From positions 1 through 64,000 of the forward strand of contig JAEUIH010000003.1 of NCBI GenBank assembly GCA_016795105.1: a DNA stretch of 64,000 bases, written 5' to 3'. How positions within the stretch are numbered: position 1 is the first letter of the stretch; the number at the start of each line of letters is the position of its first letter. The notes beneath the pieces are model-generated. The model searched no databases and had not been told where the DNA came from. It was given only the letters and a program-made list of their open reading frames with translations. Origin of the DNA: Planctomyces sp. GTDB taxonomy: Bacteria; Planctomycetota; Planctomycetia; Planctomycetales; Planctomycetaceae. The position numbers and the translations under genes were made by a program. Below, in pieces: positions 42,947-44,671 of the stretch.

Positions 42947-44008
42947 CTAGCTCATCAGACGCTGATCCAGCTCAACCTGTTGTTCCCGGTTGAGTCTCAG
43001 CTGTCCGCAGGCCGCATCGATATCTGCGCCCTTTCGCTTTCGAACGGTGGCCGTGATACCTCGCTGTTCCAGAACACTCCGGAAGTGCTCGGTATCCGGT
43101 TCGCCGGGTGCCGTCATCACCAGTTCACTGACGCCGTTCATGGGAATCAGATTCACATGAGCATTGCGCCCTCGTAGTCGATCGGCCAGTTCCGCAGCGT
43201 GATGTGGCTGATCGTTGATTCCGGATAACAGAACATACTCGTAAGAAATTCGCCGTCCTGTCTGTTCAAAGTAGTCATCCGCTGCCGCAAGGATTTCGTC
43301 GATTCCAATGTTCCGGTTCACCGGTACGATTTCAGTTCTTAGCGAATCGTTGGGTGCATGCAGCGATACGGCGAGATTGAACTGTTTGCCGGACTGAGCA
43401 AACTCGCGGATCTTCTCCGGCAGGCCAACTGTGGAGACTGTGATTCGTCTGGCACCCAGTCCGAATCCCTCGTCCGATGTCAGGACTTCGAGAGCGTCCA
43501 TCAGGTTCCGGTAGTTTGCGAGTGGTTCGCCGATTCCCATAACAACGATGTTCGTGATCTGTTCGTCGTCTTTCATCAGGCGGTGCAGGACAAGAACTTG
43601 TTCATAGATTTCAGAGGCGGTCAGATTTCGTTTCACACCCAGTAAGCCGCTCGCGCAAAAAACGCATCCCATAGCACAACCGACCTGAGTACTGATGCAG
43701 ACAGTTCGGCGACCAGGATCCCGCATCAATACACACTCTACCAATTCACTGTCTTTGAGTTTAAGCAGCAGTTTTTCGGTTTGGTCTTTCGCGGTCTGAT
43801 GTCCGGTGACCTCAAAACAGGAGAACGAAAACTCCTGACTAAGTCGCAGTCGTAGATCCGCCGGAAGATCGGTCATCTGCTCAAAACCTGAAATCCGCCG
43901 ACGAATCAGCCATTTACGAATCTGCTTCGCGCGAAATAGGGGCTGAGAATGGCTGCGAAGCCATTCTGTAAGTTCAGAGTCCGTCAGATCCAGAATTGGC
44001 CGTAACAG
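42947..44008 (-). CDS. rlmN: 23S rRNA/tRNA adenine C2 methyltransferase RlmN, probable CTG start
   Basis: 353 residues if translation starts at CTG 44008; the first ATG (43876) would give only 309. The upstream codons encode the normal RlmN N-terminal domain: ILDLTDSELTEWLRSHSQ, then LFRAKQIRKWLIRRRISGF before EQMTDLP. No ATG, GTG or TTG occurs in frame there. AAGGGG lies seven bases before the CTG. Radical-SAM Cys motif CAMGCVFC, GIGEPLANY, SLHAPNDSLR and the catalytic C-terminal Cys (DIDAACGQL) are present. It methylates A2503 of 23S rRNA and A37 of some tRNAs. The preceding gene ends three bases before, so translation is likely coupled. ATT or other CTG codons are alternative starts. Confidence 0.85.
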   Translation of the reverse strand: MLRPILDLTDSELTEWLRSHSQPLFRAKQIRKWLIRRRISGFEQMTDLPADLRLRLSQEFSFSCFEVTGHQTAKDQTEKLLLKLKDSELVECVLMRDPGRRTVCISTQVGCAMGCVFCASGLLGVKRNLTASEIYEQVLVLHRLMKDDEQITNIVVMGIGEPLANYRNLMDALEVLTSDEGFGLGARRITVSTVGLPEKIREFAQSGKQFNLAVSLHAPNDSLRTEIVPVNRNIGIDEILAAADDYFEQTGRRISYEYVLLSGINDQPHHAAELADRLRGRNAHVNLIPMNGVSELVMTAPGEPDTEHFRSVLEQRGITATVRKRKGADIDAACGQLRLNREQQVELDQRLMS

Positions 44009-44011
44009 TTT

Positions 44012-44671
44012 TCAGCCCCTTAGTATCACGAGTATTTCAAATGCGGTTTGAAGCAGTTTTTCAACCTCTTCCGGTTTTCGGCGTCCGCCAGTATACCAGC
44101 AGAGAAATCGGTCACCGCGAGCTTCGAGGTGAATCCCTCGAAATGCTTCCAGACGGTGGAGCCGTTCGACGTTCATAAACTCTCGAATCGATGCTTCCTC
44201 CGATCCCCGAAGCAGAAACATCTTCGAAAATACGGGTGCTTCCGCGAAGTTAATGTCCTGGTAGCCGAAGGCAGATGCAATTCGATGCATCACATTCTCA
44301 GGCGACATCGTAAAAAAAGGCAACCGCAGGTCCTCAGAACGCATCGACACCACTGTTTGGTGGTGCGTGTGGGAGTTCTTTCCCGACCCGGTTGTATAGC
44401 GATAGTCAAAAATTGCGACCTGAACACCATCGTTTTCACGTGTCAGGGAATTACTGAACAAACGTGCTCGACCGCGAGTCATCAGCTCAAAGGTATTGAG
44501 CTGGTTTACTTGTTCCGGTGGATGGTTGGAAAAGTACTGGAAGCCCAGCTGATTTGCGAGAGCTTCCAGTTTTTGCGATCGTTTACTGTTGGATATGCCG
44601 GTCAATATGCCCCCAATGATGAGGAGCAGAATAACGCCGCCAACAATATACAGTCCGATTTCAGGTCCCAC
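44012..44671 (-). CDS. Membrane-anchored protein of unknown function
   Basis: 219 residues from GTG at 44671, with GAGG eight bases upstream. One N-terminal helix (YIVGGVILLLIIGGILTGI), then a basic coiled segment and an alpha/beta domain (GVQVAIFDYRYTTGSGKNSH, then HHQTVVSM). It may be related to DUF3137-like proteins, but this is uncertain. It ends in CTAAGGGGCTGA, whose AAGGGG also serves rlmN, three bases ahead of the rlmN CTG. Confidence 0.65.
   Translation of the reverse strand: MGPEIGLYIVGGVILLLIIGGILTGISNSKRSQKLEALANQLGFQYFSNHPPEQVNQLNTFELMTRGRARLFSNSLTRENDGVQVAIFDYRYTTGSGKNSHTHHQTVVSMRSEDLRLPFFTMSPENVMHRIASAFGYQDINFAEAPVFSKMFLLRGSEEASIREFMNVERLHRLEAFRGIHLEARGDRFLCWYTGGRRKPEEVEKLLQTAFEILVILRG

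Follow-up and report, generated by a model that had tools for sequence, protein, structure and literature searches.

Translation starts at CTG are already known in bacteria and are very uncommon, and the rlmN gene described here, read in this way, is one more case of them. In the passages of the literature cited here, CUG accounts for 0.024% of bacterial starts, and its yield in Escherichia coli is given as about 0.86% of that of AUG (PMC11497404, carrying the figures of Hecht, 2017). Among reconstructed changes of start codon, those leading to CUG amount to 2 of 61,358 AUG starts, 1 of 5,080 GUG starts, and 1 of 2,468 UUG starts (Belinky et al., 2017; PMC5622118). As far as these texts describe them, the rare CUG-initiated genes have an NTG codon read by fMet-tRNA and a Shine-Dalgarno (SD) site upstream, features which the present locus would share (PMC5622118; PMC11497404). 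It may differ from the cases of Belinky et al. in that its start could stem from a new upstream neighbor and not from a point change in the start codon itself. A second related system is the gene V–gene VII junction of M13, in which, according to the cited passage, a start near the upstream stop is presumably used by ribosomes directly after they terminate (PMC2268962); the arrangement described here is similar. The non-AUG reporters of that source, in contrast, used initiators with mutated anticodons on UAG and GUC, whereas here CUG would be read with an ordinary anticodon. Papers on CTG in connection with rlmN or with Planctomycetes, judged by title and by the start of the abstract, included nothing relevant.

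The gene, a housekeeping one that contributes to ribosome modification, lies on the minus strand of the window, that is, the whole stretch of 64,000 nucleotides of Planctomyces sp. that was analyzed. Judged from its sequence and from that of its relatives, it is probably a functional gene whose translation begins at CTG 44008. If this is real, a natural gene depends on a very weak start codon and employs the end of its neighbor as its ribosome-binding site. In practical terms, gene callers limited to ATG, GTG, and TTG would remove 44 residues from the protein, including most of the RlmN N-terminal domain.

The rlmN reading frame and its product

Counted from CTG 44008, the rlmN coding sequence extends over positions 42947–44008 (minus strand) and encodes 353 amino acids. 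The frame, read directly, is open from the TGA of the upstream gene (44014–44012) to 42947, and the junction on the minus strand is ...ATA CTA AGG GGC TGA(44014–44012) AAA CTG(44008–44006) TTA CGG CCA ATT CTG GAT CTG..., all of it in one frame. The first in-frame ATG (43874–43876, minus strand) corresponds to Met45 and is located 45 codons from the upstream stop and 44 codons from CTG 44008. An earlier note on this DNA had claimed that no ATG, GTG, or TTG precedes that ATG and that the stop of the preceding gene lies in the rlmN frame, which confines the start to 44 codons; both points are borne out by direct reading. Its further claim, that the conserved N-terminal domain is encoded upstream of the first ATG, also stands, as most of the RlmN_N domain falls within the start-free segment (43877–44005, minus strand). 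The lack of a canonical start before the conserved core of rlmN is therefore confirmed as a real property of the sequence.

An open gap of this kind is, by itself, ordinary. In 851 kb of the same genome, 474 open reading frames (ORFs) reach a length of 200 codons or more; a start-free gap spans at least 20 codons in 90 of them and at least 40 codons in 26, rlmN being included in both counts. What goes beyond chance is the presence of a conserved domain within the rlmN gap. Ten of the other 89 ORFs with a gap of at least 20 codons, chosen by hand among the 18 that ranked highest in coding score, were compared with Pfam, and no domain reached into the start-free gap when the best stretch per family was considered (four of the ten ORFs had several stretches). 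CTG starts as a genome-wide habit were rejected within this sample, since the ten candidates held no second case, and the rlmN gene looks singular among the sampled ORFs.

The product is the predicted dual-specificity RNA methyltransferase RlmN, which would methylate A2503 of the 23S rRNA and A37 of tRNA. The CTG-started protein scores 393 bits against TIGR00048, for which the curated NCBIfam cut-off is 290, and it matches the Pfam family RlmN_N (PF21016) over residues 5–59, counted from the CTG, with 47.6 bits against a cut-off of 24; PF04055 is matched above its cut-off as well. The closest solved RlmN chain is PDB 6fz6 (E 1e-85), aligned from residue 5 on, and in this alignment the conserved catalytic cysteines are intact, namely those of the cluster motif CAMGCVFC (CxxxCxxC), of VCIS, and of the C-terminal ACGQLR.

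Placement of the start codon

Two lines of evidence point to CTG 44008 (44006–44008, minus strand) as the start of rlmN. The first is the SD-like sequence TAAGGGG (44016–44022, minus strand), located within the end of the upstream gene and separated from the CTG by a seven-base gap; the earlier note had placed AAGGGG (44021–44016) seven bases before CTG 44008, which agrees with direct reading. The duplex energy, calculated with what we take to be the sequence of the 16S rRNA tail, is -6.5 kcal/mol for both CTG 44008 and TTA 44005, -6.1 for CGG 44002, -3.7 for ATG 43876, -1.7 for CTG 43993, and 0 for ATT 43996. In the control sets, 936 of 15810 internal codons equal or surpass CTG 44008, and 35 of 724 internal CTG codons have an SD as strong; among the first canonical starts in the window, four of 37 have one as good or better and 33 a weaker one. 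In view of these controls, the SD-like site, which is not rare by itself, is only moderate evidence. A search for the 16S rRNA gene, which would confirm the anti-SD sequence, gave no match in this genome or in three relatives (two of them single-contig), and as the same search succeeded in no more than nine of the 14 genomes used as controls, this absence says nothing about the assembly. No sigma-70-like site was found on either strand between 43700 and 44900, in a phylum for which a sigma-70 scan is not informative.

The second line is provided by the relatives, and the start-column alignment is the stronger evidence for CTG 44008. Of 185 genomes with a match, 168 entered the survey of rlmN, 150 of the 163 from the family and 18 of the 22 from elsewhere in the class; the 17 genomes left out comprise 13 of the family and four of the other families. 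The survey covered 169 loci, two of which (L109 and L015) belong to one genome (G006), and in 166 of the 168 genomes the contig extends far enough to include the upstream in-frame stop. A canonical start is available in 164 of the 168; the other four are the window, G039, and two in which rlmN is truncated at the end of a contig. In three relatives, G114 (ATG), G092 (GTG), and G034 (GTG), the single canonical start available is aligned with CTG 44008 (loci L110, L114, and L116). Some canonical codon occupies this column in 31 surveyed loci, of which two (L205 and L208) are weakly aligned, and in 6 of the 29 nearest relatives. All 29 carry canonical codons ahead of the core, in most cases at a distance of at least ten codons, and in many other relatives the start likely lies further upstream than the CTG column. 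From the SD spacing, in which it is tied only with TTA 44005, together with the column of the relatives, CTG 44008 is the best-placed start, in support of the CTG start originally suggested for this gene. The CTG is not shared by the relatives, a point the earlier note had raised: apart from the window, no genome relies on a CTG start among the 166 in which the 5′ side can be read.

Of these 166 genomes, two lack any ATG, GTG, or TTG ahead of the core, namely the window and G039 (L211), a single-contig genome from another family of the class. In the latter (L211 626–700), an ATT is found at 668, eight bases after AAGGA, and an out-of-frame ATG at 640. A frameshift error after ATG 640 would be at least as possible in L211 as an ATT start.

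The upstream gene and the alternative readings

The gene preceding rlmN (44012–44671, minus strand) encodes a protein of 219 amino acids from a GTG start, ends with the TGA in the rlmN frame, and belongs to an unnamed family. The protein has no Pfam match and shows an N-terminal membrane-like segment. The family is scattered, being present in 36 of 170 genomes of the taxonomic family (this one and 35 others), sometimes in several copies. A homologue in G003 stops at the corresponding final residue, and therefore TGA 44014–44012 is the upstream gene's own end. The gene adjoins rlmN in none of the 168 other rlmN stretches, most of which include between a few hundred and 1,500 bases of upstream sequence, and the arrangement is therefore specific to this lineage. 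Among nine relatives and the window, only 1 of 45 pairs has a gene besides rlmN in common at an identity of at least 40%, and that pair shares a single gene (two of the nine relatives' stretches are shorter than 8 kb). Since the neighbors of rlmN are not shared among relatives, a new neighbor is unremarkable, and the event that brought it there can be neither placed nor reconstructed.

These observations bear on the main rival to the CTG start, an assembly error. A sequencing error could conceal a true ATG, GTG, or TTG, or a wrong join could hide the real 5′ end of rlmN. The canonical codons that every one of the 29 nearest relatives has upstream of the core speak for such an artefact, as do a neighbor seen beside rlmN nowhere else and a genome in 391 contigs, and the bases of the CTG start are known from one assembly of the species. 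On the other hand, the upstream gene is kept to its natural last residue, rlmN is kept to its core, and the SD lies at the right spacing between them, which is not expected of a random join; moreover, a new neighbor is ordinary in a sample with so few shared genes. On balance, an artefact seems unlikely.

The initiation could also take place at another near-cognate codon, that is, TTA 44005, ATT 43996, or CTG 43993. ATT is a known rare start codon, as in infC, and TTA 44005 is served by the same SD at a distance of nine bases. However, ATT 43996 and CTG 43993 are without a usable SD, and a start at either would remove part of the conserved RPILDL segment, while TTA would be a poorer match to the initiator anticodon, so that a start at any of the three is improbable.

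Highly improbable is the decay of rlmN, or its production only as a 309-amino-acid form from ATG 43876. This shorter protein still passes TIGR00048 with 346.8 bits, about 46 fewer than the CTG-started one, entering the model only at position 49, and the genome has a second RlmN/Cfr-like gene, which also speaks for this reading. Nevertheless, ATG 43876 has a weak SD and encodes an invariant internal methionine, present in 29 of 29 relatives, and therefore it is not the rlmN start. Nor is the constraint on the N-terminal segment relaxed, as indicated by a comparison with these 29 close relatives, which belong to genera g1, g72, g53, and g30 and are 71–81% identical. Up to residue 46, 13 columns are at least 90% conserved among them, and 12 of these are unchanged in the window, which has Ser in place of Gly21. 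The ratio of N-terminal divergence to that of the rest is 2.15 for the window and ranges from 1.78 to 2.44 among the relatives (420 of 435 pairs used, the 15 pairs less than 10% divergent being dropped), and since the window falls inside the relatives' range, its N-terminal constraint is not relaxed. In the same segment, pN is lower than pS against all 18 sequences compared. Pseudogene decay consequently found no support, the N-terminal constraint at the protein level being equal to that of the relatives.

Finally, readthrough of TGA 44014–44012 to yield a membrane-anchored fusion of the upstream protein with RlmN, which the earlier note offered as an alternative, is extremely improbable and gained no support: the two genes do lie in one frame, but the upstream gene is neither beside nor fused to rlmN in any of the 168 other stretches, and the SD-like site is positioned for initiation.

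Under the preferred reading, in which CTG 44008 is the start, ribosomes that complete the upstream protein at TGA 44014–44012 would be held near the stop by TAAGGGG and would re-initiate at the CTG, three bases past the stop codon, which would couple the translation of the two genes. The initiating residue would be fMet. The yield from such a start would be low, and a modification enzyme of low abundance could tolerate so weak a start. The origin of the arrangement is less certain. A lineage-specific rearrangement may have brought the upstream gene, with its 3′ end, up to the rlmN core, an older start further upstream being lost; alternatively, a previous start at the CTG column may have become CTG by point mutation, which the canonical codon in that column in some of the nearest relatives makes a possible origin.

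The initiator tRNA and a second RlmN/Cfr-like gene

The three G-C pairs of the initiator tRNA are described as highly conserved across all domains of life (PMC7949028), and the initiators of mycoplasmas, which lack them, are published exceptions (PMC10568206). In the genome of the window, the initiator tRNA (L266 1744–1818; G000:C66:16331–16404, minus strand) has A29-U41 in place of the conserved G29-C41, its anticodon stem being CGAGG/CCTCG, and a second copy with both the motif and an Rfam match is found at G000:C364:2–75. Rhizobia are also exceptions to the three G-C pairs. A pattern search for the initiator stem gave a match in 135 of 149 relatives' genomes; among the matches listed, every genome has a AGGCTCATAACCT copy and a few have other forms as well. 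In 29 of 30 loci ARAGORN predicted a tRNA-Met at the matched position, while the remaining locus has a G-C match and is not a tRNA; an initiator-type D arm was present in 31 of 36 matches by a strict text test. The A29-U41 initiator would thus appear to extend largely across the class. Among the matches listed for initiator tRNA with Planctomycetes, no paper was on A29-U41, judging by title.

The host of the window therefore resembles the mycoplasmas in departing from the three G-C pairs; it differs from them, as the cited text presents them, in that only the 29–41 pair is A-U, in that the change is widespread in its class, and in that the sampled part of its genome has no second unusual start (PMC10568206). 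If the CTG start is real, it sits in bacteria with an initiator tRNA off a near-universal rule. The A29-U41 pair might loosen start-codon checking, so that CUG in the window, and perhaps AUU in G039, were tolerated once the normal start had been lost, which we consider quite unlikely. As the same pair is common to relatives with ordinary rlmN starts, the tRNA alone cannot explain the CTG start.

The second RlmN/Cfr-like radical SAM gene of the genome (L010 1498–2532, minus strand; G000:C342) encodes 344 amino acids from an ordinary ATG. It scores 264 bits against the RlmN cut-off of 290 and falls far below the cut-offs for Cfr; many of the relatives likewise have a second match of this type.
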